This document shows, one piece after another, positions 19,651-40,106 of a DNA stretch of 54,608 nt (the stretch's first letter is position 1; every line of letters starts with the position of its first letter). Location: contig JBFMEF010000143.1 in assembly GCA_040753495.1 (NCBI GenBank), positions 1 to 54,608 of the forward strand, in the 5' to 3' direction. Source of the stretch: Candidatus Zixiibacteriota bacterium (GTDB lineage Bacteria; Zixibacteria; MSB-5A5; GN15; PGXB01). The translations under genes were made by a program, and so were the position numbers. The notes under the pieces are model-generated. The model was not told where the DNA came from. It ran no database searches and worked only from the letters and a program-made list of their open reading frames with translations.

Positions 19651-21852
19651 TCATGGTTCCAGTTTCGGTATCTGCTCCTCCAGTGGAGGGGCAAAGGAAA
19701 TTATAATCTTTTTTCCGATATTTCCAAAATTAATCTCGCCGTTCATTTCAAATATGGAATATTTTCCTTTCAGCGGTTTTCTGTCGCTGGGGTCTTTGCC
19801 CAACTGGCAAACATGCTTGGCGGTATCGATAGCGATATGAATATCATCGCCGATTTTCCAGAAGAATTCAATCTTATCCCCTTCAAAAATCTGATTGACC
19901 TCGCTCCATTTGGGGTCTTTCCCTTTTTCGGTCACCTCGATATGAAGATGCGCCTTCCCCGGAACCGATTCAATCTTGCAGGTAAATTTTCGCCGCTGCG
20001 ACCACTTGGCGGCATCCTGAAGGTACTTATTTATCATGGTGACATTCTGACGGTCAACCACCGGGTCAAGGTTGGCGAGAATCTGTCGCAGCTGCGTCAG
20101 GGCGGTCTCGAAGCGGAAAGCCGGGTCGGTGACGCTGTTAATCTGCTCCACAAATGAGCCCATTTCGCTGGTGATTTTCTGCGCCACCACCGCCTGTTCT
20201 TTCTTGGCTTTACGGGTGGAGAAGGCTTTCAAAAGGTCTTTTTCCGCGGAACTCAGTTCATGGCCAAAATCGGTCTGGAATATCTGCACCTGTTGGGCAA
20301 TCGCCAGCCAGGGGGTAGAGTCAGTCGGATTTTTTATCGCTTTTTCGAAATTGTCCCAGAGCTGTTTGCCGCGGTTGCTTCGCTTATAAAGCTCCGTGTA
20401 GTCGGTCGATTGACGGTAGCGGTTCAGCTGCTCCAGGATTTTGTCATGAATCGGCTGGTAGCGTATGGTGGAATCGGTCAGGTTAAAGACCGGCCACATG
20501 GAGGGGTCGCGAACGACCGAGGCAAAATCACGCAAGGCGCTGTCCAGCGTTTTGACGGCCATCCCCATATTGAAAGCGGTGTATGCCTCGCGAATCTCCG
20601 AGGAAGGGTACTTAAAATTCGGAAACAGATAATTTACCGTCCAGGAGCGCTCATACTTCCGATACTGGTCAATTATTTCCTGCCGCTGGTCGGTATTCAA
20701 TCCCAATACGGAACCGTTTGTGGCCGCCAGCACCACCTTCTCTTTGGATTCCAACCCGGGAAGGAGCATTTTGAAGTGATAGAGATTGGGGATGGAGTAT
20801 AGAACTATCCAGAGGAGGCTAAGCAACATGACAAATTTCGCCACCGCTCTGAAGCGAGAAACTTTGCGGCTCCGGAAAATCGATTTCAAGAGCCAGTAAA
20901 ATGGCTCCTTCACGCCGATAGGATGAATCTTCGCCGGCGGGACATATATGGAACGTCCTACCTCGGTCCCGATTTTTTCGGGGGTCTGGCCGGTATTGGA
21001 GATAAAGAAGATCTGGAAATCGAGAGTGCGCCCGACTACCACGTTCAAGAACTCCCTGAGTTTGAAAAGAACATTGCGAACGGAGCCGGCCCAGGCGGAA
21101 TTGGAGGCGATTCTGTTGCTGCTGAGAACACGGTCAAGAAATGTTTCAAAATCCTCCGCAAGAAAGTTTTCATCTTCGGGATTTATCAACACTATCTGAT
21201 TATCGCCGGTAAAACCGGGCAGAATATCGGCTTTGGTGACAACCAGAGCAATCGGCATCGGCAACCGGCTCTTGAGCGGCGCCAGTCGCTCCAGCATGCT
21301 GACGAAGGAGGCTACATGTTCCTGGCTCTGCAGTTCCGCCGCCAGGGTCTTGGGGTCGAAGAAGAAAAGTATCCCGCTACAGCCATCCATGAAATCAAGA
21401 ACTTTCTCCTTCAGTTCGATGCGGTCTGATATAGCAACAGCCCGCCCGTTATAGTCATAAGTCACCACAGAAACTTTCTTATTCTTATCAATGATGGCAT
21501 TGAATTTAAGCAGCCGGTCTCCTGCGGTCGGGTCGGGAAATTTTTTGTCGCCGCGGCGGTCGACAACGGTGCCGACATCGGTGGCGGCGCCAACCCCCCA
21601 GATGGCGCGGTAATTGGCGAGAAACTCTCCCGCGGTGGCATTGTCGATGACTGAAATCTGAAGGTCTTTGGCTATCTTGGATTCTTCATTGAGGACCGTG
21701 AAATAAACGGTCTTCCCGGAATTGGCGTGGCCATAGACGCCAATACGAATTCCCGGCGGCCAACCATACCCCGGCTCCCCCTTCTTTCCTTTCTGCTTGG
21801 CGGCAAATTTGGAACCCTTCTTGAATATTTTCAGAATTGAACCTGGTCGCAT
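19651..21852 (-). CDS. GTPase-transmembrane protein in the TssM position of the T6SS operon
   Basis: 733 residues. An N-terminal G domain carries a Walker A motif GHANSGKT (41-48), a G3-like DYNG (133-136) and a G4-like TKAD (206-209). A single transmembrane helix (about 339-357) follows, and then about 370 residues predicted to be periplasmic, mostly helical, with a beta-rich last 100. Classical TssM has about 1,100 or more residues, two N-terminal helices before its cytoplasmic domain and a 'GPPGAGKT'-type loop. This protein lacks the N-terminal helices and has a different nucleotide loop. It probably forms, with the preceding tail-anchored protein, the inner-membrane base of the secretion system (inference from operon position and topology). 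It may not be a true TssM orthologue. Confidence 0.75.
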   Translation of the reverse strand: MRPGSILKIFKKGSKFAAKQKGKKGEPGYGWPPGIRIGVYGHANSGKTVYFTVLNEESKIAKDLQISVIDNATAGEFLANYRAIWGVGAATDVGTVVDRRGDKKFPDPTAGDRLLKFNAIIDKNKKVSVVTYDYNGRAVAISDRIELKEKVLDFMDGCSGILFFFDPKTLAAELQSQEHVASFVSMLERLAPLKSRLPMPIALVVTKADILPGFTGDNQIVLINPEDENFLAEDFETFLDRVLSSNRIASNSAWAGSVRNVLFKLREFLNVVVGRTLDFQIFFISNTGQTPEKIGTEVGRSIYVPPAKIHPIGVKEPFYWLLKSIFRSRKVSRFRAVAKFVMLLSLLWIVLYSIPNLYHFKMLLPGLESKEKVVLAATNGSVLGLNTDQRQEIIDQYRKYERSWTVNYLFPNFKYPSSEIREAYTAFNMGMAVKTLDSALRDFASVVRDPSMWPVFNLTDSTIRYQPIHDKILEQLNRYRQSTDYTELYKRSNRGKQLWDNFEKAIKNPTDSTPWLAIAQQVQIFQTDFGHELSSAEKDLLKAFSTRKAKKEQAVVAQKITSEMGSFVEQINSVTDPAFRFETALTQLRQILANLDPVVDRQNVTMINKYLQDAAKWSQRRKFTCKIESVPGKAHLHIEVTEKGKDPKWSEVNQIFEGDKIEFFWKIGDDIHIAIDTAKHVCQLGKDPSDRKPLKGKYSIFEMNGEINFGNIGKKIIISFAPPLEEQIPKLEP

Positions 21853-22824: not shown

Positions 22825-24273
22825 CTACATTGAATAAATTATCAAATCCATTTTCCCTAAACGGGAGAATTTAGAGGCATCCTTGGCGCCGCGGAAGATG
22901 AGAGTAATCTGCCGCACCGACGAGGAGCGCATCATATCTTTGGGGTGCAGCGCCACTTTATTGCCGAAAGTATTGGTATCGACATCGACCGGGTCGGTCT
23001 CCCCCAGCCCGCGGGCGTCATTCAAACCAAGCCGCACCTGCATATTATTCCATTCGGGGATGGTGAAAAGGTCTTTTGACATCAGCACTACGGCATCAGC
23101 CACCGCCCGCGGCTGCGCGACATCAATCATCAGATAGCAAAGCTCGCCGACCTGTTCCAGCCGATTGGAGCTGAAGGGTGCCACGCGGTAGGTCCTGCCG
23201 CTGTAGGTGAGAGTGTCGGTCGCCATCGCCTGCTCGCCCAGCTGCTCCCGTTTGGTCTGCGCCAGGAATCCCAGAACACCCCGCAGCACGCCCAGAATCT
23301 CATCAATTGCCTGTATATGCTCCCCGAGCGCTTGATGGTCATACTCCTTCATTATAAAGGCCTCGACGACTGAGATGAATTTCCCCACCTCGGTATTCAA
23401 CTCCTTGGTGAAATATTTCTCGTTGAGATAGTCTTTCAGACCGGGCTGGAGATTGATAAGAGTGGAAAAAACGCGGAAAAGCTTCTTGAAGAATATGACC
23501 AGTTGTAGCGGGTGAGCAGCATTCCGGCCAATGATAAAATCATCAATTGAAGCCGCCAGGTGATAGACCAGGAGATAGACCGTTTCCCGAAACGCCAGTT
23601 GCAGTTGGGTGCTTTCACCGGCCATGGCGCCGCTGACCGAGACGGCCAGATGCGCCCGTGACGCCAGCGCCAGCAGATTCTCTAAGCGGTTGCGGTAATC
23701 AATCGCTTTTTGAGAGAGCCGCTCATCCGCATTCAGGCTGAGACAGGGAGGAAAATAAGTATCAGAATTGCGGACATCACTGCCGCTGACAATAAGCTCA
23801 GCCACTTTTAGATAACTGGACTCCGGAAGACCGCTCGGCTTCTGCAGATGAACAGCATAGCTATTGACCAAATAGGGAATCCGCGGAAGGTCCTCGTCCG
23901 GGTCAGGGTCCCCGACCTGGCGCTTGGAGACGGCATCAACGCTGATATATACAGGAATGACCGGCTCGGTGACATTGAGCTCGCCTCCAATCGGATTGCG
24001 CAGGGTCTCGCTAATCTCAATATAGTTTCCATCCGGCGTGAGCGCCTGGCATCTGGTAATTTCCAGTTTGAGGCGATTTCCATTAATGACAGCCTTAAAG
24101 CCAATCGCCGGTTTACCGTCGAAACTTTTCCGCACCAGACCGTAGCGGTCGCCAATATGGAGGCTGTGCCAGCGGGTCAGCTCTTCAAAATACTTTTCCT
24201 GCTCTTTGAGATGGCGCTCGGTGATAAGCATGCCATCCTGCCAGTTCACGGAATATAAGTTCAAGTCATCCAT
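22825..24273 (-). CDS. tssK: T6SS baseplate protein TssK
   Basis: 482 residues, close to the usual 440-480. The N-terminus 'VNWQDGMLITERHLKEQEKY' matches the TssK opening pattern of a short strand, 'W-x-x-G-M-x-L' and a helix with H and Q/E. The shell domain contains 'PVYISVDAV' and 'YLKVAELIV'. The central helices (about 220-360) and a C-terminal domain beginning 'TYSGRTYRVAPFSSN' follow the three-domain plan. TssK trimers link the wedge TssF-TssG to the membrane complex; the C-terminal domain that meets the membrane proteins is the part expected to differ here. TTGAGG lies 8 bases upstream of the ATG. Confidence 0.88.
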   Translation of the reverse strand: MDDLNLYSVNWQDGMLITERHLKEQEKYFEELTRWHSLHIGDRYGLVRKSFDGKPAIGFKAVINGNRLKLEITRCQALTPDGNYIEISETLRNPIGGELNVTEPVIPVYISVDAVSKRQVGDPDPDEDLPRIPYLVNSYAVHLQKPSGLPESSYLKVAELIVSGSDVRNSDTYFPPCLSLNADERLSQKAIDYRNRLENLLALASRAHLAVSVSGAMAGESTQLQLAFRETVYLLVYHLAASIDDFIIGRNAAHPLQLVIFFKKLFRVFSTLINLQPGLKDYLNEKYFTKELNTEVGKFISVVEAFIMKEYDHQALGEHIQAIDEILGVLRGVLGFLAQTKREQLGEQAMATDTLTYSGRTYRVAPFSSNRLEQVGELCYLMIDVAQPRAVADAVVLMSKDLFTIPEWNNMQVRLGLNDARGLGETDPVDVDTNTFGNKVALHPKDMMRSSSVRQITLIFRGAKDASKFSRLGKMDLIIYSM

Positions 24274-24332: not shown

Positions 24333-25238
24333 TTAAATCTGGCTGGAAAAACCAAGGAAAGCTTGACGTTGTTTCTTGCCAATATGAACAGTTTTATCCG
24401 ATGAGACCAGCCTAATAATTCTGTTGAGATACCCCGGCATGCTGATATCAAGAACGGTCTCGAGCCTCTTCCTCTTTCTTCCTTTCGGCATCCAGTCGCG
24501 CATTTCCGTAGTGCCAATATCGCGAACTTCCACCAGATAGGTGGAGTCTGATTCATTGAAAGACCTGCCCAGAATGGTTTCTCTCCCGAGACGTCCGCTG
24601 ACGGTTCCCAGATGGTAACGAATACTCGCCGGAATGGCAAACTCGGCCCGCTGGTTCTCAATAATTCTGAATTCTTTCTCAAACAGCAATCCCAGGAATT
24701 GCGACATCAACTCCGGGTTGGCGGACCAATAGTGAAAGGATGGAAAGAGGGCCGCCCAGAGGAGAGCTTCGCGCATCTCATCGCCGCTTTGAAAAACATC
24801 GTAATCGAACAACTTCAGAAATCGCACGAGATGCTCGTATTCAACGACCCCGAGGTTGAATTTGAGAATCAGATTTCGGGCTATTGAAGTATACCTGATG
24901 ACGGCGGCATCAAAGGGGGCCATCAGTTCCCGCGACTGCATCTCCCATTCGCGCGAGCGCACCACATTGGTGTGCAAGCCATAGAAAAACTGATACGGCA
25001 TCTGGTCCACGGCGCTGGGATAACCGACATGCAGAACGATGCGGCTTTCGCTCGTAATTACCCGCCCCGGCGCCGGCTCCTGATATATGATTTCCCCCTT
25101 ATAATTTTCATATTCGCCTACCGCCAGGAGTTCTACCCGGTCGAGGTCAACCCCGATTCTTATCAGGGTATTGAGCGCCGTGGTAAAGTGAAATGGAGAT
25201 TTGCGACTGGTGAAGTCGGGCATGAGCTTTTCGGTCAT
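24333..25238 (-). CDS. tssG: T6SS baseplate protein TssG with PASTA-like N-terminus
   Basis: 301 residues. The C-terminal half fits TssG: 'LGLLFEKEFRI', then 'LGRETILGRSFNESDSTYLV', then an 'MPKGRKRKRLETVLDISMPG' segment that aligns with the second strand-helix repeat of the family. The N-terminal 75 residues contain 'GEIIYQEPAPGRVITSES' followed by IVLHVG, which resembles the second half of a PASTA domain and is not part of classical TssG. The ATG overlaps the tssF stop by 4 bases (ATGA), so translation is coupled and equimolar wedge subunits are likely. Assignment rests on position next to tssF and tssK plus the C-terminal motifs. Confidence 0.8.
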   Translation of the reverse strand: MTEKLMPDFTSRKSPFHFTTALNTLIRIGVDLDRVELLAVGEYENYKGEIIYQEPAPGRVITSESRIVLHVGYPSAVDQMPYQFFYGLHTNVVRSREWEMQSRELMAPFDAAVIRYTSIARNLILKFNLGVVEYEHLVRFLKLFDYDVFQSGDEMREALLWAALFPSFHYWSANPELMSQFLGLLFEKEFRIIENQRAEFAIPASIRYHLGTVSGRLGRETILGRSFNESDSTYLVEVRDIGTTEMRDWMPKGRKRKRLETVLDISMPGYLNRIIRLVSSDKTVHIGKKQRQAFLGFSSQI

Positions 25239-26914: not shown

Positions 26915-27289
26915 CTATCCGATATGGAAGGTCCCTTCATATTTTTTCTCCTCTCCGTCATCGCGATAGTTTCCGCTGACTTTGACGGCCATGCCCAGCG
27001 AATGAGGCGAGGTGTCGGCAACGCTGGAGAATGAAATGGAGACATTATAGAGACGTCTTTCAAATTTATCGATGGCGTTGCGCAGGCTGGCTCTGATATC
27101 AGCCTTATTGGCGGTGTACAGGTCGGAATATTCTTTTTCCCAGATATCGCAGCCATATTCCGGGTTAAAAGGCATGGTTCCGATACGGGTGCTGAGAAGC
27201 AGTCCAATAGAAAAGGTGATTGATTCTTCGAGATTAGCCCGGGAGAGATACCCCTCTCGCAAAATAAAAGGAAGCGCTAAATAATCCAT
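26915..27289 (-). CDS. tssE: T6SS baseplate protein TssE (gp25-like)
   Basis: 124 residues. The gp25/TssE core is clear: 'SIGLLLSTRIGTMPFNPEYG' with 'CDIWE', then 'ADIRASLRNAIDKFERRL' and a C-terminal beta-hairpin 'MAVKVSGNYRD'. The classical EPR motif of gp25 is replaced by the 'F-N-P-x-Y-G' form common in non-proteobacterial systems. It is a wedge protein that starts sheath assembly. It lies 7 bases after vgrG and 6-12 before tssF. Confidence 0.9.
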   Translation of the reverse strand: MDYLALPFILREGYLSRANLEESITFSIGLLLSTRIGTMPFNPEYGCDIWEKEYSDLYTANKADIRASLRNAIDKFERRLYNVSISFSSVADTSPHSLGMAVKVSGNYRDDGEEKKYEGTFHIG

Positions 27290-27296
27290 GGGCAGG

Positions 27297-29057
27297 TCAA
27301 TTCAGCTGGATGATGGCGCCTTTGACGGCGACCTGACTCTGACCTTTCAGGTTCAATGTTGCGCCCTCCATTTCCGCCGGTCCTGAGGCTTTGGCTTTCA
27401 GCCCGGCGGTTCCTTCCAACTCCATATTGCCGCCGGCTTTGGCTATGACATCCTTGTCTGCTTTTATTTCCACCTTATCGGTACTTTCCAGAGTGATATT
27501 CTTGGCTTTCAGCGTAATGTCGCCGTCGGTGCTCTCAATAGTAATTTTCGGAGAGCCGGAGAGGTCCATGGTAATGCTGTTCTTACCATCCTTCATGGCG
27601 ATTATCAGTTGCTCGCTGCCGCTTTCGTCTTTAAAATAGATGCGGTTTCCTCCCCGGGTGAGGAACATCTTTATATCGTTCTTATCATTGTTGGTATCGG
27701 AATGCGGCGCGTCATCTTTATGATAGAGTGAGCCAAGCGCCACCGGCAGGTCGGGATGACCCCGCTCGAATCCGACCAGGACTTCATCATCGATTTCCGG
27801 GAGGCAGTACCAGCCGCGGTCGGCGCCGGCGTGCGGAGTTAAAAACCGAATCCAGGGGGTCTCGTCAGAGGGAAGCCAGGGAAATTTGACTTTTATGCGA
27901 CCCATTTTTTCCGGGTCATTGTTGTCTGTAACAATCGCGCTCTGTATATCGGTAAGCGAAGGCGGCAATTTCCTTACGCTCGGGAAGGCGGTGTCAAGAG
28001 GAATGCATTCAAAAGTATTCTGGTATTTACCGCTTTCGTTGAATTGGTGCCGGACAGAGGTGACATAATAGGTGCCGTCAAATTTATCCATGCCGCGCAC
28101 TTTGACACAATTTCCGGGGACGATTTTGGGGACTATCGATTGCCCGGCGCAGATAATCATTTTTCCGATAGCGCCGCTTTTCTCATTCTTGAGGTGCTCA
28201 TCCAGCGACTGGGCATCGCTGACCAGACGCGGCTGATTGGAGAATCCCGATGACGTGTATATTTTTTTGGAGGCATCGGGCGAGATTTTGTACAGATTCG
28301 CCAGCGCCGTCGAGGAAGACATGGAGCTGGTATCCTGGGAGTAATCCTTATTTTGCTCGTAGCTGTAGAGGCTCGATTCAAATTCGGCCGATTGCGTTCC
28401 CAGACCGAGCGAGAAAGAACCCAGAGTTTCGCGCCAGGTAAGGTCTTCGGTATTGGAGCCGGAAGCTTTAGCCACCTGAAATTCCTTGCCGTTATAAAAC
28501 GCGAATTTTCCATAGCTGCCGGCAAGCCGCATAATGAAATCATAATCGGTTTCGTTATACTGCACACAGAATTTTAGCGTCCCGCGGGTGGCTTCCTGTG
28601 TTCCCATCGTTATGGGATATTTTCTGACGACGGAGCCGATAATATCAGTCGCTGTAAGTTCATTAAAGAAGGCGTTATGCCTGGGACCGTCAAGAGCGAT
28701 GGTCGGGCTATGACCGGTAATCAGAACGGTATTGAGCCCATCAATGCTGTTATCGAGACTCACCCTGGTTACAATCCCTATGAATTCCAGTTCCCGCGAG
28801 GCATCGACCATCCCGCCGCCGGGTTTGATGTTCAGCGCTATCGACTTGCCAAGGAAATTGGCATATTCGGTGGGGTCATCAAAATCCTTGCTGGAGGTCG
28901 CTTTTCCGACCTGCCGAATGCGAACCTGCAAAACATGATGGTTATCGACATACTGATGAAGGGCGACCGATGATATATCGTATTTGACCTGCTTATTGTC
29001 GATTTGAACCGAGCAGAGCGCCGGTGTCTCAAGTAAGGTTGTTTTTTCTTCAGGCAT
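27297..29057 (-). CDS. vgrG: T6SS spike protein VgrG (TssI)
   Basis: 586 residues. The gp27-like base covers about 1-370 ('CVQYNETDYDFIMRLAGSYG' is the typical VgrG motif). The gp5 OB-fold follows ('MGRIKVKFPWLPSDETPWIR', 'GWYCLPEIDDEVLVGFERGH', 'PVALGSLYHKDDAP'). A beta-prism needle of short repeats ('ITIESTDGDITLKAKNITLE', 'GGNMELEGTAGLKAKAS') extends to the C-terminus at QLN. No C-terminal effector domain is present, so it needs a PAAR tip and separate cargo. It is preceded in the transcript by a strong hairpin (29070-29094) just downstream of hcp, which leaves only a weak AAAGACGG as ribosome-binding site. Confidence 0.95.
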   Translation of the reverse strand: MPEEKTTLLETPALCSVQIDNKQVKYDISSVALHQYVDNHHVLQVRIRQVGKATSSKDFDDPTEYANFLGKSIALNIKPGGGMVDASRELEFIGIVTRVSLDNSIDGLNTVLITGHSPTIALDGPRHNAFFNELTATDIIGSVVRKYPITMGTQEATRGTLKFCVQYNETDYDFIMRLAGSYGKFAFYNGKEFQVAKASGSNTEDLTWRETLGSFSLGLGTQSAEFESSLYSYEQNKDYSQDTSSMSSSTALANLYKISPDASKKIYTSSGFSNQPRLVSDAQSLDEHLKNEKSGAIGKMIICAGQSIVPKIVPGNCVKVRGMDKFDGTYYVTSVRHQFNESGKYQNTFECIPLDTAFPSVRKLPPSLTDIQSAIVTDNNDPEKMGRIKVKFPWLPSDETPWIRFLTPHAGADRGWYCLPEIDDEVLVGFERGHPDLPVALGSLYHKDDAPHSDTNNDKNDIKMFLTRGGNRIYFKDESGSEQLIIAMKDGKNSITMDLSGSPKITIESTDGDITLKAKNITLESTDKVEIKADKDVIAKAGGNMELEGTAGLKAKASGPAEMEGATLNLKGQSQVAVKGAIIQLN

Positions 29058-29107: not shown

Positions 29108-29512
29108 CTACTCCTGCCAGCGGTTGTCAATCTCGGCATCGCCGATACTGAGCTTATGACAGGATATTTCGAAATACTCGAAAATCTGGTCGTCAGGACG
29201 CTGTTTAATATGAGGAATCATCTCCTCATAGCGGGTGATGAAACCTTCTTCCCAAGCGAGCTCTTTCATGGTGGCGTCATCGGGATTTTTGAAAGTCACT
29301 TTCCCGGCTTTCCAATTGGGCTTGCTGGAATCCATTGCCCAGCGGGCGATGTTGGCATTCTCATCCGACTCGCGGGTTATTTTAATAACCCCGGCATGGG
29401 CCCGGTCGGCAGGGCGTCCGGTTTCATCTTTTGCGGTATAAAGTTCGTACGAGACCTGGTAAACGTTTTTGTAAACCACACCATCGATCTCAAGAATCGG
29501 TCTCCGAGCCAT
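29108..29512 (-). CDS. hcp: T6SS tube protein Hcp, Bacteroidota (TssD) type
   Basis: 134 residues. 'LEIDGVVYKNVYQVSYEL', DETGRP, 'DDATMKELAWEEGFITRYEE' and the C-terminal 'KLSIGDAEIDNRW' match the TssD family of Bacteroidota T6SS subtype iii rather than the classical Hcp1 family. It forms hexameric rings of the expelled tube. A strong ribosome-binding site (GAAAGGAG, 6 bases before the ATG) and the hairpin after its stop both fit high expression. It lies between tssC and vgrG. Confidence 0.88.
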   Translation of the reverse strand: MARRPILEIDGVVYKNVYQVSYELYTAKDETGRPADRAHAGVIKITRESDENANIARWAMDSSKPNWKAGKVTFKNPDDATMKELAWEEGFITRYEEMIPHIKQRPDDQIFEYFEISCHKLSIGDAEIDNRWQE

Positions 29513-29615: not shown

Positions 29616-31040
29616 CTACTTGTCCTTTACGTTGGTCTGATTATCCTGGTTCCAGGCGACAAATTCAATGTTGAATGTCCGCGCCGGATACTTGGGATTA
29701 AGACTGATTTTGACGTCTACTTCCTGACGCTTGCGCATCTCTTCATCGGCGAAGATTTCGACTTTATAATCCTGAAGGATATTGTCGCCACCGGTAATTG
29801 CCTTCATAAATTTATCGATGTCCTTGCGCATGGTATCGATAAATTTCTGGTCGATGACCGTGAAGGTCTGCTTATTCAGATAATTGCGCATTGTCTTGTA
29901 AACATAGTCATAGGTGCGCCGGATGGAGTAAACGTTAAAGGTTTCTTTGGAGAAAAGCGTAGCCGCGCCCATGGCTACCGCCGTCCCCTCGAAGTTGACC
30001 AGCGGGTTGACACCCTTTTCATTAATCTTGGAAGCGTCAGGCTGGTTGGCTTTAAAGCGAAGATATTTGGCATCGGCTATTTTGCCGAATTTGAAGCCGG
30101 CCATCGGCTGCTGCATTCCGACCGTCAGGTCACCCTGATACATCTTGCCGGCAACAGCTGCGGAGGGGGGAATCCACATATCATCATCTTCGTACTGGTT
30201 GGCGTTGCGGGCAAGGACATAGTTGGCAAATACCGAGACATACTGCTTGTAGCTGTCGATACCCATCATGTTGGCATAATTGGGGTCTTCCAGCATATCC
30301 ATGACTTCTTCGAATTTCTCGAAGTTAGGCAGGTCGGTGAGGATATGCACCTTGTTCGGCATCCCCAGCTGACGGGCAAAGGTATCGATATTCTCAACAC
30401 TTCCGAGATAGCCGGGAACGACCGCCATGGCAAAGCATTCCTTGATGCTCCACTCGCGGTACAGGTCAGCCACCGCTTTGGAGAGCTGCTCGAATTTTTC
30501 CCGGTCATCGGGATTGGCCAGTTCCTCGGCGGAGACATTGGCGAAATAGGCGTTGACCTTTTCATCCGGTTCCTGCTGGGCATTGGCAAAAAACTTTTCG
30601 ATAGCGCGATAGGTGGTTTCCAGTTCTCGCGCCGCCTGATGAACGCGGCGCATATTCTTTTCGAGATTAGCCTCCAGTTTGGCGGAATCCTCGCTCAGCT
30701 GTTTGCGGATTTCATCGAGGTCGCCGCTGCGTGAAAGGTAATCGAGCCAAATTTTGAGTCTCTGCGCAAGCAGTTTTCTCTGTTTGGCGAATTCCTTTTT
30801 GGTCAGAAATTCCTTGCGCTGGAAATCCTTTTTGGGGTCGAGCCATTCCACCCCGCGGACCAGGTCGCCATCGGCCGTTTTAAAGGAAGGAAGCAGATTT
30901 GCCAGCTTGCTGAAGTCGGCAAAATTGTCCCCCATTATTGACTGGAATTCTTTGTCGGATATTTTTTCTGCGGCTTTCTCAGCCCTTGCTTCCGCCGGCG
31001 CCGCCTGCGGCTGCATTTCTCTTTTTTCTTCTTCAGCCAT
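29616..31040 (-). CDS. tssC: T6SS contractile sheath large subunit TssC
   Basis: 474 residues, typical length. An acidic/Ala-rich N-terminus and a coiled-coil region come first. The conserved sheath core follows: 'ECFAMAVVPGYLGSVENID', 'IPPSAAVAGKMYQGD', 'NPLVNFEGTAVAMGAATLFS', 'RRTYDYVYKTMRNYLNKQTF' and the C-terminal strand-helix 'ISLNPKYPARTFNIEFVAW'. TssC with TssB makes the cytoplasmic sheath whose contraction drives Hcp-VgrG out. AGGTG precedes the ATG by about 6 bases; tssB ends 14 bases upstream. Confidence 0.95.
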   Translation of the reverse strand: MAEEEKREMQPQAAPAEARAEKAAEKISDKEFQSIMGDNFADFSKLANLLPSFKTADGDLVRGVEWLDPKKDFQRKEFLTKKEFAKQRKLLAQRLKIWLDYLSRSGDLDEIRKQLSEDSAKLEANLEKNMRRVHQAARELETTYRAIEKFFANAQQEPDEKVNAYFANVSAEELANPDDREKFEQLSKAVADLYREWSIKECFAMAVVPGYLGSVENIDTFARQLGMPNKVHILTDLPNFEKFEEVMDMLEDPNYANMMGIDSYKQYVSVFANYVLARNANQYEDDDMWIPPSAAVAGKMYQGDLTVGMQQPMAGFKFGKIADAKYLRFKANQPDASKINEKGVNPLVNFEGTAVAMGAATLFSKETFNVYSIRRTYDYVYKTMRNYLNKQTFTVIDQKFIDTMRKDIDKFMKAITGGDNILQDYKVEIFADEEMRKRQEVDVKISLNPKYPARTFNIEFVAWNQDNQTNVKDK

Positions 31041-31054
31041 TTAAATCACCTCAC

Positions 31055-31495
31055 TTATTCGCTGAGCAAGTCGATATAGTATTTTGCCACTTTCAGAAGA
31101 GCCTCTTTCTTTTCCTTATCCTCCAGAGTTTTCTTAAGGGCGTTGTTTTTCTTGAGTTGCTTCTCCAGGTCGGAAAGCATCTCTTTTCCATAGTACGCTT
31201 CCGACAACTGGTCGTTTTTCTCAATCAGTTCCTTGGACGTGAAATCCTTCATGGCGCGCACTTCAAAATTGGCGTTGACCGTCTGCCCTTCGGTATTCTC
31301 CAGTTCCGCCGAGAACGAGGGACGAAACTTCTCGAATACCTCTTTTAAGTTGGTGCACTTGGTCGGCGTGACATCGGCGTCTTCCTCGCTGTTTAAACGC
31401 GCCGCATAAAGAATCTTGTTGGACGGAAGCAGTTCCACCGGGATGGAGTCATCCTGCTTGATTCTCTCCGTAGCGCCCAGTATAAATTTCGCCAT
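31055..31495 (-). CDS. tssB: T6SS contractile sheath small subunit TssB
   Basis: 146 residues. 'IPVELLPSNKILYAARLN', 'CTNLKEVFEKFRPSFSAEL' and 'NANFEVRAMKDFTSKELIEK' match TssB; the C-terminal 60 residues are a charged helix, as in the sheath handshake region. GCGGAGG lies a few bases before the ATG. It sits 19 bases after the tssH C-half and 14 before tssC in one transcript. Confidence 0.93.
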   Translation of the reverse strand: MAKFILGATERIKQDDSIPVELLPSNKILYAARLNSEEDADVTPTKCTNLKEVFEKFRPSFSAELENTEGQTVNANFEVRAMKDFTSKELIEKNDQLSEAYYGKEMLSDLEKQLKKNNALKKTLEDKEKKEALLKVAKYYIDLLSE

Positions 31496-31514: not shown

Positions 31515-32615
31515 TTAAATTGTTTTTGCCATTCTGTTAAAAATATAGCCGTCATCTTTTACGTCAATAATGACCTCGTCGCCGGGCATGACATTACCGG
31601 TGATGATGTCAACCGACAGTTTGTTTATGATTTCCTTCTCTATTATACGTTGAATCGGGCGCGCCCCTAACTCGAAAGTATAGCCGTCCACGGCCAATTT
31701 GTGACGGGCGGCCGGACTTAGGGTGGCCTTTATCTCCTGGTCTTTGAGAAGCTGGTTAACCTGCTCGAATTCCAGACCGGCAATGACCTCCACCTGCTCC
31801 TGTGAGAAGGAGTGATAGATAATGATGTCGTTCAGGCGGTTGAGGAACTCGGGACGAAACTTGGTGAAAAGAAAACCCCGCACTTCGTCCATATCAACTT
31901 CCCGTCCCTCGCGGTCGGCGTCGAGAATCTTGTCGGCAGCATAATTCGAGGTGAGGACCACGATGGTATTGGAGAAGTCGACCGTGCGACTCTGACCATC
32001 GGTCAGGCGGCCGTCGTCAAGAAGCTGCAGCAGGACATTGAAAACATCGGGATGCGCCTTCTCCACCTCATCAAAAAGGACAATGGAAAACGGTTTGCGC
32101 CGAACAGATTCGGTAAGGACTCCCCCCGCTTCGTACCCGACATACCCGGGAGGAGCGCCAATCATCTTGGCGACGGAGTGAGATTCCATGAATTCGGACA
32201 TATCGAGGCGCACCATGGCATTCTTGTCGTCAAAAAGGAATTCCGCCAGAAGTTTGGGAAGATAGGTCTTGCCGGTCCCGGTCGGTCCGAGAAAGAGAAA
32301 GGAGCCAACCGGGCGATGCGGGAGTTTCAGTCCGGCCCGGGCTTTCCGAACGGCATTGGCGATAGCCTGTATCGCTTTCTGTTGCCCGACAATCTTTTTT
32401 GAGAGGAATTCTTCCATCTTGAGAAGGCGGTCTTTTTCAGCGGTCATCATCTTGGAAAGCGGGATGCCGGTGCGGCGAGCCACTACGGCGGCGATGTCGG
32501 CGTCATCAATCTTATGCTCCAGACTCTCGATAATCTTCTTGAGGTCACCAAAGACCTGGCGTTTCTCGCCGAGGTCCTTTCGAATATCTTCTACTTTCGG
32601 TTTCTTAGCGCTCAT
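31515..32615 (-). CDS. tssH: ClpV/TssH C-terminal half (second AAA+ domain) as a separate protein
   Basis: 366 residues. It begins with a short linker and helix ('DADIAAVVARRTGIPLSKM', the end of the ClpB/ClpV middle region), then the second AAA+ module: Walker A GPTGTGKT (110-117), pore loop GYVGYEAGG (157-165), Walker B IVLFDE (178-183), 'LTSNYAADKI', and the C-terminal small domain 'KFRPEFLNRLNDIII' and 'GARPIQRIIEKEIINKL'. Everything from this region of a normal ClpV is present, so it should be a working ATPase ring. It starts at an ATG overlapping the stop of the N-half gene by 4 bases (ATGA), with GGGGTG 6 bases upstream of the ATG. This is a real, separately translated start and not obviously a sequencing frameshift. 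Confidence 0.9.
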   Translation of the reverse strand: MSAKKPKVEDIRKDLGEKRQVFGDLKKIIESLEHKIDDADIAAVVARRTGIPLSKMMTAEKDRLLKMEEFLSKKIVGQQKAIQAIANAVRKARAGLKLPHRPVGSFLFLGPTGTGKTYLPKLLAEFLFDDKNAMVRLDMSEFMESHSVAKMIGAPPGYVGYEAGGVLTESVRRKPFSIVLFDEVEKAHPDVFNVLLQLLDDGRLTDGQSRTVDFSNTIVVLTSNYAADKILDADREGREVDMDEVRGFLFTKFRPEFLNRLNDIIIYHSFSQEQVEVIAGLEFEQVNQLLKDQEIKATLSPAARHKLAVDGYTFELGARPIQRIIEKEIINKLSVDIITGNVMPGDEVIIDVKDDGYIFNRMAKTI

Positions 32616-34069
32616 GATGTCACCCCCGTTTTGACTTCGAGGCGATGCCCCCAGAAGCCTTTGAATCGGTCGAAACTGCGTTGAAATTCATCATAGGCGG
32701 AATAGAGCTTCTCAAAGAGTTCCTTATCCTTTTCCGGGTCTTTTCCCTCGCACTCCTGAACTAATTTCTCGAGCGCTTCTATCTGGGCGGAGACAACCGG
32801 CATCTGCTCTTTGGCGAATTCTTCCTTTACGCTGTACTCGGAAGCGGCTTCATCGACAATGTCAATGGCGATATCGGGAAGATTCCTTTCGCTCAGATAC
32901 CGCTGGGCGAACTTAACCGATGCCACAATCGCCGGTTCGGTGTAGGCGACCTTATGATGTGATTCATACTTGGGAACCACGCCTTTAACAATCCTGACCG
33001 CTTCATCAAAATTCGGCTCTTCCACTTTTACCCGCTCGAAGCGGCGGTCGAGAGCCTTATCTTTCTCAATATACTTGGTATATTCTTCTTCGGTAGTCGC
33101 GCCGATAATACGAATCTGTCCCCGCGCCAGGGGGGGCTTTATCAGATTCGCCGCATCCATACCACCGCCGGAGCTGCCGCCACCGCAGAGAGTATGAATT
33201 TCATCTATGAAAAGGATAATCTTGCCGCCGGATTTGACCACTTCGCCTACCAGCCCTTTGAATCTCTCCTCGAATTCCCCTTTGTATTTGGCTCCGGCGA
33301 CCAGCGAACCCATATCAAGGGAAAGCACTTTAACTCCAGAAAGAGTCTTCGGGACCTTGTTGGCGATAACCGCCTGGGCGAATCCTTCAACAATAGCCGA
33401 TTTTCCGACACCGGCGCCCCCGACAAGAACCGGGCTGTTTTTCCGACGGCGCAGCAATATCTGAATTACCTGCTGCAGCTCTTTTTCCCGGCCTATCATC
33501 GGGTCGAATTCGCCGGCGGCCGCCATATTGGTCATATCGACGCAATACTTCAGGGTGCCGGCAACCTCCGGTTTACCTTCTTCGCCGGTGGCGCCGACTG
33601 AGGGAGTAACCGACGAGGCAATCTCCTGCACCGACTTACTTTCTGCAATCGCCCGGTAGATGTCCTCTTTGGTGATATCAATCTTATCGCGGAGATAGGC
33701 GGACAACTTGGAGCGGGGGTCAAATATGGCAATGAAGATATGCTCCGGCTCGACCAGAGCATCATATAGTTTCCCTTTCTCTTCAATTGCCTGTGTCAGC
33801 GTTTCCTGCACCGAGGGCGATATTGTAAGGCTGTCCTTGGCGGTCGCTTTGCGCGGCTGCTCTTTTAAGAATTCCTCGGTCATCGATTCGATTATGGAAG
33901 GATTCTTCTTGAGTTGATTCAGAATCGACTCCACCCCGGAGCTTTCGGAGCGGATGACAGCAATCAAGAGATGCTCCAATTCGATTTCAGGATGCCGAAA
34001 AGTGGCGGCGATTTCGCGGGCGTTCTTTATTACAACCCGTGAATCCGATGAGTAATTAGCAATATCCAT
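32612..34069 (-). CDS. tssH: ClpV/TssH N-terminal half (N domain and first AAA+ domain) as a separate protein
   Basis: 485 residues. A double Clp-N repeat (about 5-75 and 80-150; '[11 protein letters not shown]', '[11 protein letters not shown]') precedes the first AAA+ module: '[19 protein letters not shown]', Walker A GGAGVGKS (217-224), Walker B ILFIDE (285-290), '[20 protein letters not shown]' and the small domain '[20 protein letters not shown]'. It stops inside the middle domain after a 60-residue coiled segment; the second AAA+ domain is the next gene. ClpV recycles contracted sheath. It is the first gene of the T6SS core transcript, about 80 bases from its promoter; no Shine-Dalgarno is seen before the ATG. 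Confidence 0.9.
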
Positions 34070-34237: not shown

Positions 34238-35086
34238 CTATCTTGGTGTAGGCGGAGTCAATTGACCGTGATGGAAACATTGTGCCGCAATCGGCTGGTC
34301 CAGTTTATAGAACGGAATGGGGCACATCATATGACGTCCCATCGTCTGCTTATCGGCGGTGGTCTGATCGGCATCCCATCCAAGGGGCGAAGCCAGGATA
34401 CTGGCGCCTGAAACGTCATGGATAGAGCCGCTGATGGCGCTCTGCCATCGGGTACCGCTGGCGCGATTCTCGCATTCTGCTTTGCAGTGAGCGATTTCAT
34501 GATAGGCGGCGCGGGCTAACAGATTCCCCTGGATTTCAATCCAATTGGTGGCATCATAAGACATGCGGGCATTGCCAAAGGCTTCGGCGCAGGCCGGCAT
34601 CAGGTCAGTAGCATGCAGAGCGGCGCCCTCCAGGTCGCCGGTATTACCGGTTATCATGTTACGCCAGGTGGAAATATTGGAGCTGGGGAACTCCTGAAAA
34701 CGGCCATCTTCAAGCGCCTGAAGCATGACCAGACTGGGCCTCCTGTCGATAGGATTGCTTGGTCTTCTCTCCGCCTCTTTTCTGGTTATATAGACAATCG
34801 GTTCATACATGGATATAGTCAGACCGCTGAAATTGGGAACACCGGGGGAAGTCGCCGGTATTTCGGTTACACGGACAGTGTATGCCGGATGCGAACCGGG
34901 AATATACTGGACTGCCGCCTGCATCAGTGTCTGCAATGTGGTCCGAAACAGGGTTAAGACCTGGGCGCGGGATTCCCGCACATAAGTATCGTTGTCAGTC
35001 AACTGAGCCGGGGTGCCGCTGGAACCCTCGCGCTCCGGCACAAATGTCGGCTTCACCACAAAATAATAGACATTATAATTCGGCAT
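34238..35086 (-). CDS. Metallopeptidase-like protein with HEIAH motif (candidate T6SS cargo)
   Basis: 282 residues, no signal peptide. The zinc-site motif HEIAH is at 196-200 in 'LLARAAYHEIAHCKAECE', a further His in 'SGSIHDVSG' (about 223) could be the third ligand, and 'GRHMMCPIPF' (about 250-258) could provide a Met-turn. The N-terminal 190 residues have no clear domain. No family is recognised. GAGG lies 5 bases before the ATG. It is the last gene of the payload block, with 151 bases between it and tssH-N. The lack of a signal peptide fits a T6SS-delivered protein better than Sec export (inference). Confidence 0.6.
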   Translation of the reverse strand: MPNYNVYYFVVKPTFVPEREGSSGTPAQLTDNDTYVRESRAQVLTLFRTTLQTLMQAAVQYIPGSHPAYTVRVTEIPATSPGVPNFSGLTISMYEPIVYITRKEAERRPSNPIDRRPSLVMLQALEDGRFQEFPSSNISTWRNMITGNTGDLEGAALHATDLMPACAEAFGNARMSYDATNWIEIQGNLLARAAYHEIAHCKAECENRASGTRWQSAISGSIHDVSGASILASPLGWDADQTTADKQTMGRHMMCPIPFYKLDQPIAAQCFHHGQLTPPTPR

Positions 35087-35997: not shown

Positions 35998-36435
35998 TTA
36001 GTCGTCTTCTGATTCGGGTTTGGGATTGAAGGAATTGATAATTCTATCAACCTCGGTCCCGATGGTCTTGATGGTTTTCTTGGAGAAGTTGGCGGAAAAG
36101 ATATATCCGATTTCATCGACAATTAAAAAGACCTGCTTTCGATATATGATGCTCTCGTCTGAGGGTACCCATTTAAAAACAATCTCTACTGCAGGAAATC
36201 CGCTATCGAGAGTCTTTTGCTCCTCTTTGAGCATCTCCATTCCCGGCATCGTATTAAGAGTTAAATCCCGTCTCTCGCGAACATAGTCAGCCAGTTCGGT
36301 CTTGCCGGCAGATCTGTCTACGACGAGCGTGAGGAGGTGCTGTACTCCGCTGTCTTCGGGACCCATGTAGGTGTAAATGGTTTGGTCTTCCCAGTCGGGC
36401 GGGAGCTTTATTTGAAATGGTGCGCCGGAATTCAT
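35998..36435 (-). CDS. DUF1795 (DcrB/Eag-like) T6SS effector chaperone
   Basis: 145 residues. 'FQIKLPPDWEDQTIYTYM', then 'LTLVVDRSAGKTELADYVRE', then 'GFPAVEIVFKWVPSDESIIY' and a C-terminal 'FSKKTIKTIGTEVDRIINSF' follow the DUF1795/DcrB fold used by Eag chaperones, which shield hydrophobic segments of PAAR-linked T6SS effectors before loading. There is no signal peptide, consistent with a cytoplasmic chaperone. Its client is likely one of the neighbours (the 591-residue metallopeptidase-like protein or the PAAR protein), although no obvious transmembrane segment is seen in them. It ends 5 bases before the next gene. Confidence 0.75.
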   Translation of the reverse strand: MNSGAPFQIKLPPDWEDQTIYTYMGPEDSGVQHLLTLVVDRSAGKTELADYVRERRDLTLNTMPGMEMLKEEQKTLDSGFPAVEIVFKWVPSDESIIYRKQVFLIVDEIGYIFSANFSKKTIKTIGTEVDRIINSFNPKPESEDD

Positions 36436-36478: not shown

Positions 36479-37210
36479 TCATAAAGACTCCGCCTGTAGC
36501 AAGAGTGTATCCATCTGGGGATTATTGCGGTTTTCCTGCCACCAGCTGAGAAACTCAGCAACTTTGAGGCTGATTTGCTTCTCTTTTTCCTTTCTCACAT
36601 CCGGGGTATCTTCATCATACGGAAGGTCTAATTGAAAGCGGGGATATAGTTTTCTCAGCCAGTCGCCGGCCCATTCTCTCCGACCATATATCATATTTGG
36701 GTCTCGCGCGACTTGCACCAGCGGTATTACCGATTCCCGTTGATAATGTACGGCCAAGGCTACCCGGTTGGACTCCTTTTCCCCCTCCGTGAGATAGCAG
36801 ATGAAATTGCCCGGCCTTAGATACAATCGTTCATTGAGGTCAGATTTAAAACTTATCCCGGAGTCCGGCGGAATCGTCACCAATTCCTTTTTGGGAACAG
36901 TTGTAACATACCGGTCGGATGCTTTGTCAATTACCAAGGTTTCAGTTTGTCCCAGAGTGTAATTGAAACCCTCTCCTGACGCCGAGTCGAGCAAGTGCAT
37001 GTTGATATCCAGGGATTTGGCGGGATTCTCAACCAGGATTTTTTCCGAAGTGGAATTCATGTAGTTTATTTCCGCCGGAATTGATTCCCCGAGGTAGTAC
37101 GACGTCTTGCCGAATTTTATTAACATCAAGATTTCTCCTTCCACTTTATTGGCACAGGCGATAACTGCCGTGATAGCCGTAAATAATCCGCATAGTAATG
37201 CCCAGATCAA
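36479..37210 (-). CDS. Probable lipoprotein overlapping the metallopeptidase-like gene (candidate immunity protein)
   Basis: 243 residues. The N-terminus is hydrophobic with a lipobox-like VIAC at Cys19. A beta-sandwich follows ('ESIPAEINYMNSTSEKILVE', 'LNERLYLRPGNFICYL'). The last 50 residues are helical ('SLKVAEFLSWWQENR'). No family is recognised. The start is a TTG at 37210 sharing the TTGA of the stop of the upstream metallopeptidase-like gene, with AGAGGA 8 bases before it. A periplasmic lipoprotein translated in step with an unsecreted putative peptidase is the usual design of a T6SS effector-immunity pair (inference). If the TTG is not used, the next Met would remove the lipobox. Confidence 0.65.
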   Translation of the reverse strand: MIWALLCGLFTAITAVIACANKVEGEILMLIKFGKTSYYLGESIPAEINYMNSTSEKILVENPAKSLDINMHLLDSASGEGFNYTLGQTETLVIDKASDRYVTTVPKKELVTIPPDSGISFKSDLNERLYLRPGNFICYLTEGEKESNRVALAVHYQRESVIPLVQVARDPNMIYGRREWAGDWLRKLYPRFQLDLPYDEDTPDVRKEKEKQISLKVAEFLSWWQENRNNPQMDTLLLQAESL

Positions 37211-38982
37211 GGGATAATTCCTCTGAGAATTTTCTTCTCGCGTTCTGTAAATGTTGTGCCTCCGGCAGTAGTCTCATACATTATGCCGGCATTGGACGTC
37301 GAGTGATCAAGATTAGGTCCAAAATCCTCTCTTTGGAAATATGATTTAGTAGCGTGACCAGCCTCATGGCGCACAACCTGCTTTACCGTGGCATCAGAGA
37401 GACCCTTTGGAGAAGTTATAATTCCATTACCGTGACTAAGGCCGCCCCAGCTGGCTTGCAATGTGTGGTTTGTTCTTGCCGCGGCGAGATCTGCGGCAGT
37501 CGTCGGTCGCTCAATCCAGCACAGGTCGGGATCGCGGTCGCGATAGAAATGCCCGCCTCTGCCATCAGGAAAAACATTTACTCCCAGCCACGATGGAGTT
37601 GTTCCGGTCCCCTCGATATCCCATTCATTGGTTATCGAATCTCCGCCTCTGGCAGAGTATTTGGGATGATAGAATTTGATTGCCACCAGAGTGTTATTGG
37701 GAATCGCGGCATCTCTCACCCAGGTGCCGATCGCGGCATGGAAAGCATTGTCTATACGACTTGCCCAGGCCTGCGCTTTGTTCCTAATTGCAGTTCTAGC
37801 AGGCGCCACCAGCGCAGTCAGGGCGGCATCAGCGCCGGAATAGGTGGCATTAGCTATCTCCTCGGCAGTCGGAGTCTCCGCGGCAGTTTTGGCTTTTACC
37901 GTCGCCCAGTTCTCCTGAGGCGTCGCGGAATTCCTCCAGAGCCCAATATATTTTACGCTATGAGCGGCATCAATAGCCGTAGCGGCGCCTGCTCGATAGT
38001 CGACAAAAGCCGGGTCGTACACAGGGGAGATAATCGCCCTGGTAGCATTTCGGGAAACATGATTTTCGCCTTGCATCTCATATATGCTTGAAAATGAGAC
38101 CTGCCTCCAGACCGTCAGCCAGTTCGTTTGGGCCGTAACCTCCTGCCTGGCTCCTCCAGCCCCAACCACGCCGGAATCAGCCGCCAGTACCCGCGCCGTC
38201 AATCTGAACTTATCGCCACCGACTCCCGAGGGCTTGAATTTAATGAAAGCTTTTCCCTGGTCGCCGCCGTCAGCAGTTAAAGTCCTGACCCGGCACGTAG
38301 TGCGATAGCCGTTGTCACTGTTGGTATGGGCGGCGTCGGGATGGTAAGTTGCATTTCTTTCCCAGTATACCTCTGCCGCATCACCCTTCTTGCCCAGTCG
38401 GTGTCCCGGGCTGTATTCATATGATGATGTTTTAGCAGTATTATTGGCGTCTTCCTCGAAGGAAAAGTGAACATCTACGGGTGTCTTGATCCGCCGATTC
38501 ACATTGTTGGAGTCCTTTATGAATATGGTGGCGGCCAGGTCGAGCATATTGGTGGGATTGTTCATTATAATGCTGTCGGTCACAAAGCTGTTGGTGCGAT
38601 GCCAGAGACTGATTGAGTGCACTTTTACTTCAACCGTCCTCGTGCGAGTCAGCGCGCGCCCCACGGTGAGTGTCACGGTGTAAGGAGACTTTGCCGGAGT
38701 CACCAGTTGACCTCGTGTATCACGGCCATCCCACTCCCGGACAGCGCGCCGGTCTCCGGCGAGAGCCAGTACTCCACCAGTGTCCAGAACGATAGCATTA
38801 TCTTTATCTTTTATCGTAAGAGAGACCGCCGCTCCCTGCAGACTTTCACCGCGCCGAAATTCATATTCAATATTGAGATTTTCATGTCCCGGGGCGAAGC
38901 GAGACGGACAATTCAGGGAGGCGGAGCCATCAACAACAACCACTTCACCGACCCGCACTCTCCCCATTCTAACTCGGCACAT
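37207..38982 (-). CDS. Metallopeptidase-like T6SS effector candidate (HEAGH, Met-turn)
   Basis: 591 residues, no signal peptide. The N-terminal 120 residues include a FlgD-Ig-like strand set ('WDGRDTRGQLVTPAKSPYTV'). A beta-rich middle (about 120-330) follows, then an Ala-rich helical segment, then a C-terminal catalytic-type domain. Its zinc motif HEAGH is at 539-543, with His560 in 'FGPNLDHSTSN' as possible third ligand and a metzincin-like Met-turn 'NAGIMYE' (565-571) before the last helix. The order HExxH ... H ... IMY suggests a metzincin-like zinc peptidase with an insertion in the usual spacing. It lies 53 bases after the PAAR gene. Best guess: peptidase toxin delivered by the PAAR/VgrG spike. 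Confidence 0.7.
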   Translation of the reverse strand: MCRVRMGRVRVGEVVVVDGSASLNCPSRFAPGHENLNIEYEFRRGESLQGAAVSLTIKDKDNAIVLDTGGVLALAGDRRAVREWDGRDTRGQLVTPAKSPYTVTLTVGRALTRTRTVEVKVHSISLWHRTNSFVTDSIIMNNPTNMLDLAATIFIKDSNNVNRRIKTPVDVHFSFEEDANNTAKTSSYEYSPGHRLGKKGDAAEVYWERNATYHPDAAHTNSDNGYRTTCRVRTLTADGGDQGKAFIKFKPSGVGGDKFRLTARVLAADSGVVGAGGARQEVTAQTNWLTVWRQVSFSSIYEMQGENHVSRNATRAIISPVYDPAFVDYRAGAATAIDAAHSVKYIGLWRNSATPQENWATVKAKTAAETPTAEEIANATYSGADAALTALVAPARTAIRNKAQAWASRIDNAFHAAIGTWVRDAAIPNNTLVAIKFYHPKYSARGGDSITNEWDIEGTGTTPSWLGVNVFPDGRGGHFYRDRDPDLCWIERPTTAADLAAARTNHTLQASWGGLSHGNGIITSPKGLSDATVKQVVRHEAGHATKSYFQREDFGPNLDHSTSNAGIMYETTAGGTTFTEREKKILRGIIP

Positions 38983-39035: not shown

Positions 39036-40106
39036 CTATGTCGAGGCCTGTGTCACCGACCCCTGCCCGGGAAAAGATACCGACCATTCGCCCGGCGGAA
39101 CTTTTTCAACTTTCTTGTACCCGTTGGAATCGAGAGTTCCTTCAAGGATTTGCCCATTGGCGAAATAAAGACGATAGGCAGCGTTGGGAACCGGGTTACC
39201 GTTGTGGTCTTTAAGATATATTTCAACATAGTCTTTGAATCTCAGCAGCGGTGAACGGGCGGTCGCTTTCTCAATCCGTACGATAAAATAGTACTCAGGA
39301 AGTGAATATCCCAGTTTCTTATCTTGCTCGGTTTGAACGTCATCGGTGTCTTCGACATACTGGTATTCCCAGTCAACTTCCACTTTGTCGCCGGACGTCT
39401 GTCCCTCTATCGTGGCAATAAGGTCATCGGCGGAATTGAAATCCTTCTCAAAAATCTGAAATTGCGCTTTAGTTCCCGATACAAACCCGGAAATCTCCGC
39501 TTTGAGCTTCACAGTTTCTCCCACTCGAGCTTCTTTGGCTGACCACTCCGCCTTGGTAATCGCCTTAAGCGTCACCTCATAATTCCCCTCCGGGACTCCC
39601 CCTTTCTTGATCTGACCGGCCAGGGTGCCTGAAACAACTTTATTATCGGGGGACTTTACCGAATAGGAGACGCCCGTAATCGGTTTACCGGCTTTATCAG
39701 TAAACTTGACATTCAGGAAATGCCCCTTTTCCTGTTCCACCGCGCCGGACTCCCCTTCGCCGGAGCCACCGCCTCCACCCCCGGCTCCTCCCCCACCGCC
39801 GCCACCGCCGCCGCTGCTAATCATAACAGTGGGACATCCCGGCGGGGCAATACTATCTGGGGGACCGGTGCAGGTTACCATGTCGCCGACCACGGCTGCC
39901 GGCATCCCTCCGATAAGCACGGTAGGGGCGCCGGGACCGACAATAGGCCCACCCACATGAGGCACCGGACCGGTCGTCATAGGACAGGTGTGCATGTCAC
40001 TTAACCGGGCGGCCGGCATCCCTCCGATAAGGACGGTGGGGCATCCCGGAGGCATGATCACTCCGCCATGAACGGTCATATCGCCAACTCGCGCTGCGGG
40101 CGGCAT
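39036..40106 (-). CDS. PAAR-domain spike-tip protein with glycine linker and Ig-like extensions
   Basis: 356 residues. Residues 1-100 are a PAAR domain ('MPPAARVGDMTVHGG', 'GCPTVLIGGMPAARLSDMH', 'GAPTVLIGGMPAAVVGDMV', 'GCPTVMISS'), which sharpens the VgrG spike and carries cargo. A glycine-rich linker (about 101-125) leads to an Ig-like domain ('FTDKAGKPITGVSYSVKSPD'), a second one ('EWSAKEARVGETVKLKAEIS', 'DWEYQYVEDTDD'), and a carboxypeptidase-like C-terminus ('VEIYLKDHNGNPVPNAAYRL', 'GYKKVEKVPPGEWSVSFPG'). The last two are shared with the protein at 35114-35992. It is the first gene of the payload transcript. No catalytic motif is visible, so it probably displays or docks effectors. Confidence 0.92.
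   Translation of the reverse strand: MPPAARVGDMTVHGGVIMPPGCPTVLIGGMPAARLSDMHTCPMTTGPVPHVGGPIVGPGAPTVLIGGMPAAVVGDMVTCTGPPDSIAPPGCPTVMISSGGGGGGGGGAGGGGGGSGEGESGAVEQEKGHFLNVKFTDKAGKPITGVSYSVKSPDNKVVSGTLAGQIKKGGVPEGNYEVTLKAITKAEWSAKEARVGETVKLKAEISGFVSGTKAQFQIFEKDFNSADDLIATIEGQTSGDKVEVDWEYQYVEDTDDVQTEQDKKLGYSLPEYYFIVRIEKATARSPLLRFKDYVEIYLKDHNGNPVPNAAYRLYFANGQILEGTLDSNGYKKVEKVPPGEWSVSFPGQGSVTQAST
39762..39813 (-). repeat. Poly-glycine coding low-complexity tract
   Basis: GGN/GGC-type codons encode about 17 residues, almost all Gly, forming the flexible linker between the PAAR tip and its Ig-like extension. It is prone to slippage, so length may vary between strains. Confidence 0.8.

Follow-up and report, generated by a model that had tools for sequence, protein, structure and literature searches.

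A putative ClpB-like T6SSiii-type ATPase encoded by two coupled half-genes in Zixibacteria

Hsp100 motors are classically single chains, and their ATPase tiers are thought to communicate via the covalent link between them and a regulatory middle domain (M-domain). Division of a related motor has been described in eustigmatophyte plastids, where clpC is split between the AAA modules into clpC_A and clpC_B, and in Nannochloropsis into clpC1 and clpC2 (PMC3999925, PMC11528492). Separation has also been engineered in ClpB, and PMC2689388 (citing Beinker 2005) states that separate NBD1 and NBD2 associate non-covalently if NBD2 is lengthened to take in the last NBD1 helix. Among T6SS ATPases, an N-terminal helix alpha-0 before the Clp_N repeats is specific to ClpV (PMC4239648), and Francisella ClpB serves as a T6SS ATPase without alpha-0, also when DnaK-contact residues are mutated (PMC7182274). 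A literature search of mainly open-access papers found no report of a split ClpV or a split T6SS ATPase.

The window (the whole 54,608-nt stretch of DNA that was analysed) contains a T6SS cluster on its minus strand, and all features described here lie on that strand. Family models match TssB (sheath small subunit, 31055..31495; TIGR03358/PF05591), TssC (sheath large subunit of the T6SSiii type, 29616..31040; PF17541), the Hcp/TssD tube protein (29108..29512; PF17642), VgrG/TssI (27297..29057), TssE (gp25; 26915..27289), TssG (24333..25238) and a TssK-like protein (22825..24273) whose match to TIGR03353 (E=8e-13) is under the model cut-off. PF17541 and PF17642 are Bacteroidota-type Pfam families, and in the plasmid collection the window TssC best matches TssC proteins of Bacteroidota T6SSiii (27–29% identity). 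None of the neighbouring ORFs tested has an NCBIfam or Pfam match to the accessory genes TssN, TssO or TssR. A 733-aa protein (19651–21852) occupies a TssM-like position, with weak IcmF/double-GTPase matches.

The tssB gene is directly downstream of two half-genes, whose lengths and positions are exactly those of the two ORFs named in the original prediction. The first ('tssH-N', 32612..34069, 485 aa) encodes a Clp N-domain, AAA+1 (D1), most of the D1 lid, the first two M-domain helices and a 12-residue tail, with Pfam matches to Clp_N (residues 17–68), AAA (214–346) and AAA_lid_9 (355–451). The second ('tssH-C', 31515..32615, 366 aa) encodes the returning M-domain helix, the end of the D1 lid and D1-D2 linker, AAA+2 (D2) and D2-small, with matches to AAA_2 (101–264) and ClpB_D2-small (271–350). 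The split is confined to the T6SS ATPase, as ClpB and ClpC of the same genome are each encoded as one chain.

Alignment with E. coli ClpB and the genome's own ClpB shows that the first ORF covers wing 1 of the M-domain (32654..32881) and stops just past a conserved W-G-x-R. The second opens with the returning helix (about residues 8–33, 32517..32594; placed by alignment and the model of a fused relative), followed by the end of the D1 lid and the D1-D2 linker (DDADIAAVVARRTGIPLSKM, residues 37–56, 32448..32507; placed by alignment to E. coli ClpB). An AlphaFold2 model of the first chain has helices at residues 397–440 and 449–472, the second at high confidence, and a disordered tail at 474–485. 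The corresponding model of a fused protein from Krumholzibacteriota, built from a thin alignment (18 rows; mean pLDDT 78, pTM 0.51) and with ClpC and ClpB as its best PDB matches, has helices at 402–441, 448–469 and 485–507; the position of the cut falls in the loop at 470–484. In these models the junction is in a loop between M-domain helices, and the predicted break inside the middle coiled-coil is thus borne out by both alignment and structure prediction. The accompanying suggestion that the middle domain may be lacking holds for wing 2, which is absent, and fails for wing 1, which is kept; the domain is shortened to half size and not lost. Wing 2 is also absent from fused relatives and from Bacteroidota T6SSiii ATPases, so its loss goes with the lineage and is not a consequence of the split.

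The two modules together contain the catalytic motifs of a double-AAA+ Hsp100 motor, including both Walker A/B sets that had been described as intact. Across 32 N-halves and 28 C-halves, little or no variation is seen in the motif columns for Walker A and B, the pore-loop tyrosines, the arginine fingers and sensor 2. D1 has a Walker A motif in invariant columns (GGAGVGKS, residues 217–224, 33398..33421), an invariant arginine finger pair (R342-R343, 33041..33046) and, in the aligned columns, a pore loop (KYKG, 261–264, 33278..33289) and Walker B (FIDE, 287–290, 33200..33211). D2 has an invariant Walker A (GPTGTGKT, 110–117, 32265..32288), with a pore loop (GYVG, 157–160, 32136..32147), Walker B (179–183, 32067..32081), arginine finger (R260, 31836..31838) and sensor-2 motif (GAR, 317–319, 31659..31667) all in the corresponding alignment columns.

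The split is shared by relatives, a point that the original prediction had marked for checking. The C-half of the T6SS ATPase is in a short frame in about 57 of 132 Zixibacteria genomes sampled, and five genomes (families f13 and f18) have an unsplit T6SS homologue of 813–815 aa, beside tssB/tssC where this could be read; the split form is thus present in about 57 of the 62 sampled Zixibacteria species with this ATPase. At every locus where the contig permits a check, the halves are neighbours and the sheath genes lie next to them. Unsplit ATPases of families f13/f18 (L078, L080, L081, L083) have a degenerate D1; that of L078 keeps the D1 Walker A, has D-D in Walker B and is missing the R-R arginine-finger pair, and its D2 looks intact.

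In Krumholzibacteriota the same protein is a single chain of 840–845 aa, encoded next to tssB/tssC, in which a short linker comes after W-G-x-R-L-D where the Zixibacteria proteins are cut. Their sequences group with four split Zixibacteria loci (G005, G008, G011 and G014) in three trees, with SH-aLRT support of 99 in the larger ClpV tree, 89 in the TssB+TssC tree and 97 in the combined tree. Topology tests do not reject a tree in which the split sequences are held together as one clade (p-AU 0.45 and 0.29). With one reduced taxon set the Krumholzibacteriota are placed outside the split clade with a support of 44. The nesting of Krumholzibacteriota among split loci suggests transfer followed by fusion, and natural re-fusion is the favoured, although not proven, origin of their one-chain form. 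Treating Krumholzibacteriota as a plain unsplit ancestor is not favoured, as three trees put them beside the four split loci. The Bacteroidota outgroup is unsplit, and one chain is therefore likely to be the ancestral state; the later history would be either a single early fission and subsequent re-fusions or fission on two or three separate occasions. Relatives with one continuous frame, which had been named as grounds for refuting the split, do therefore occur in both five Zixibacteria and Krumholzibacteriota, but appear to represent a derived or parallel state and not a sign of error.

The arrangement probably reflects gene fission in the M-domain loop of a ClpB-like T6SSiii sheath-recycling ATPase, giving two coupled chains that are obligate partners in a two-tier ring. 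An ancestral ATPase gene would have been split inside the loop of the middle-domain coiled coil, with the two chains made at about 1:1 and pairing via the M-domain helices that the cut separates and via the D1 lid, the final elements of which open the second chain. Six such pairs (six N-chains and six C-chains) would assemble an ordinary two-tier hexameric ring that recycles the sheath by pulling contracted TssB/TssC subunits through the pore, and the chains would act as obligate partners and not as two independent motors. The absence of helix alpha-0 leaves sheath recognition unaccounted for in this proposal.

The split T6SS ATPase is most likely a natural counterpart of the engineered non-covalent ClpB, in that both have a second chain that includes the last D1 element. 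They differ in that the engineered form is a laboratory construct, whereas the Zixibacteria split is natural, coupled and conserved, and association of its chains is predicted from sequence. The original prediction had held that a two-part ring would need new subunit contacts; these are probably not needed, because the cut is in the M-domain loop and leaves the final part of the D1 lid on the second chain, as in the engineered split ClpB that re-associates. Plastid clpC fission likewise divides a double-AAA+ Clp protein between its two AAA modules, but it concerns the ClpC family in an organelle, the N-domain is also detached, and the genes are not described as coupled.

A more elaborate scheme is unlikely, in which the split is functional and not neutral: D1 and D2 would form rings that can be exchanged or regulated independently, partner association would build or dismantle the motor on demand, and fission and re-joining of the motor would have happened repeatedly in the T6SSiii-like lineage. 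It is also distinctly improbable that the halves act separately, for instance with the C-chain as the motor and the N-chain forming a ring for docking or regulation, or that they exchange with other Clp subunits. Each half does have a complete AAA+ core, and separately expressed ClpB NBD1-M is reported to have ATPase activity and to link nucleotide binding with oligomerisation (PMC4239642); however, the genes are coupled neighbours at every locus where both can be read, each chain carries part of the D1 lid, and the one-chain version in Krumholzibacteriota is consistent with a 1:1 partnership.

The name ClpV needs qualifying: by position and architecture the protein probably works like ClpV, but scores, the N-terminus and phylogeny place it outside the TssH family. 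The two halves score 392.5 and 311.2 bits against TIGR03345 (ClpV/TssH; cut-off 884.95) and 423.5 and 465.4 bits against the ClpB model TIGR03346 (cut-off 1232.1), and are thus below both cut-offs. One-chain relatives and Bacteroidota T6SSiii ATPases likewise score higher with ClpB than with TssH and below both cut-offs; for example, one-chain L065 has 683.7 bits with the TssH model and 864.1 with the ClpB model, compared to 1249 for a true TssH on its own model. Helix alpha-0 was not found by alignment or in AlphaFold2 models, with few residues preceding helix alpha-1. In the tree, the Zixibacteria and Krumholzibacteriota ATPases are apart from proteobacterial TssH and join the Bacteroidota T6SSiii ATPases, represented by two examples, with bootstrap 91 and SH-aLRT 98, just under the star threshold. 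The cluster also carries the TssC and TssD families of the T6SSiii-type lineage (PF17541 and PF17642), and by these sequence comparisons the split ATPase probably belongs to a ClpB-like lineage of that type, outside the curated ClpV/TssH family. A plasmid hit lacking annotation (H2) proved to be ClpB-like and was rejected.

Bacteroidota T6SSiii ATPases (annotated 'ATP-dependent Clp protease ATP-binding subunit') share the tree group (91/98), the TssC/TssD families and the shortened M-domain, but are single chains, of 812–849 aa in the two examples read. Proteobacterial ClpV/TssH shares the T6SS cluster location, domain order and inferred sheath-recycling role, whereas the Zixibacteria form has two chains, no helix alpha-0 and a sub-cut-off score, and is very distant in the tree. 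ClpB/Hsp104, which includes the Francisella ClpB, is the closest by family models and PDB sequences, but is a single chain with a full two-wing M-domain; the second wing, which in ClpB carries motif 2 (the Hsp70 contact), is missing from both split and fused forms of the T6SS ATPase. The higher ClpB scores of both halves could indicate a second ClpB-type disaggregase that merely adjoins the T6SS genes. This is very improbable, as the ATPase adjoins tssB/tssC in both split loci and fused relatives, groups with ATPases of Bacteroidota T6SSiii clusters, is without wing 2 and hence the DnaK-binding motif of ClpB, and coexists with the genome's own one-chain ClpB.

The two half-genes share a 4-nt ATGA stop/start overlap (32612..32615) indicative of translational coupling, and a Shine-Dalgarno-like sequence (GGGGGTGA, 32620..32627) has a G run (GGGGG) 7 nt before the second ATG. 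The coupling originally proposed from this overlap and ribosome-binding site is thus present, and it recurs in dozens of independent assemblies. Among 51 distinct junctions, 46 have an overlap of 1–8 nt: 32 are ATGA, ten TAATG, and one each GTGA, TGATG and a GTG with a −8 overlap, together with L064, counted as TTGA although its second start is either this or 2 nt past the stop. The remaining five have gaps of 36–75 nt. A Shine-Dalgarno-like motif is located upstream of the second start at 48 of the 51 junctions, as compared to 16% of control positions inside the first ORF. Four loci of family f8 (L076, L077, L084 and L085) have a split ATPase with a 36–75 nt gap and, in three of the four, no clear Shine-Dalgarno sequence; the f8 split is possibly an independent fission.

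Most loci place the second gene in the −1 frame of the first, and some overlap windows contain slippery-type heptamers, such that programmed −1 frameshifting, or stop read-through, might fuse the halves at the overlap. This is extremely improbable: no slippery heptamer is conserved across the 51 junctions, the two frames are related differently in some relatives (L019, L066), and the overlap usable for a frameshift join ranges up to 322 nt but is just 4–7 nt in L061, L074, L031 and L057 and nil in L066, L076, L077, L084 and L085. With the joining window so variable, the slippery site not conserved and the frame relations differing, the conserved property is separate translation of a coupled second gene, marked by its Shine-Dalgarno sequence and start codon.

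Both halves are under strong purifying selection, with dN/dS for close pairs of 0.02–0.11 for the first ORF and 0.01–0.09 for the second, ignoring pairs with saturated dS. The presence of the split in about 57 of 62 ATPase-bearing Zixibacteria species means that the two-half arrangement is a real, selected design and not a sequencing error. That the gene is truly one frame or dead, through a sequencing or assembly indel or recent pseudogene formation, has next to no probability, for although the window derives from a 221-contig MAG, a few relatives have one frame and the C half of G027 contains a TAG, the split recurs among these species with varied overlaps and a constant Shine-Dalgarno sequence and start, has a dN/dS of 0.01–0.11 and appears in sequence records whose titles call them chromosomes (CP070766, CP070777, CP070674 and CP070756). 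The TAG of G027 (L013/L043) is in frame and points to an assembly error or to decay of this copy. An apparently split ATPase in G152 (L108) was rejected as a ClpB with a disrupted frame, outside this system.

Natural fission and probable re-fusion offer a comparison for how much tier-to-tier coupling needs covalent linkage, and in a two-component motor each tier would be separately mutable, titratable and labelable. The T6SS ATPases of ClpB-like type, a lineage separate from proteobacterial ClpV, appear to extend beyond Bacteroidota, and annotation keyed to full-length ClpV would miss the split ATPase.

Several further genes are located upstream of the ATPase. These include a PAAR-motif protein (39036–40106) with a SpaA/carboxypeptidase-regulatory-like C-terminal domain and a DcrB-domain protein (35998–36435). 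The region from the PAAR gene to the ATPase also encodes two unclassified proteins (37207–38982 and 34238–35086) that match no Pfam or NCBIfam family. They contain HExxH-like motifs (HEAGH; YHEIAH) and are possible candidates for metallopeptidase-type T6SS cargo.
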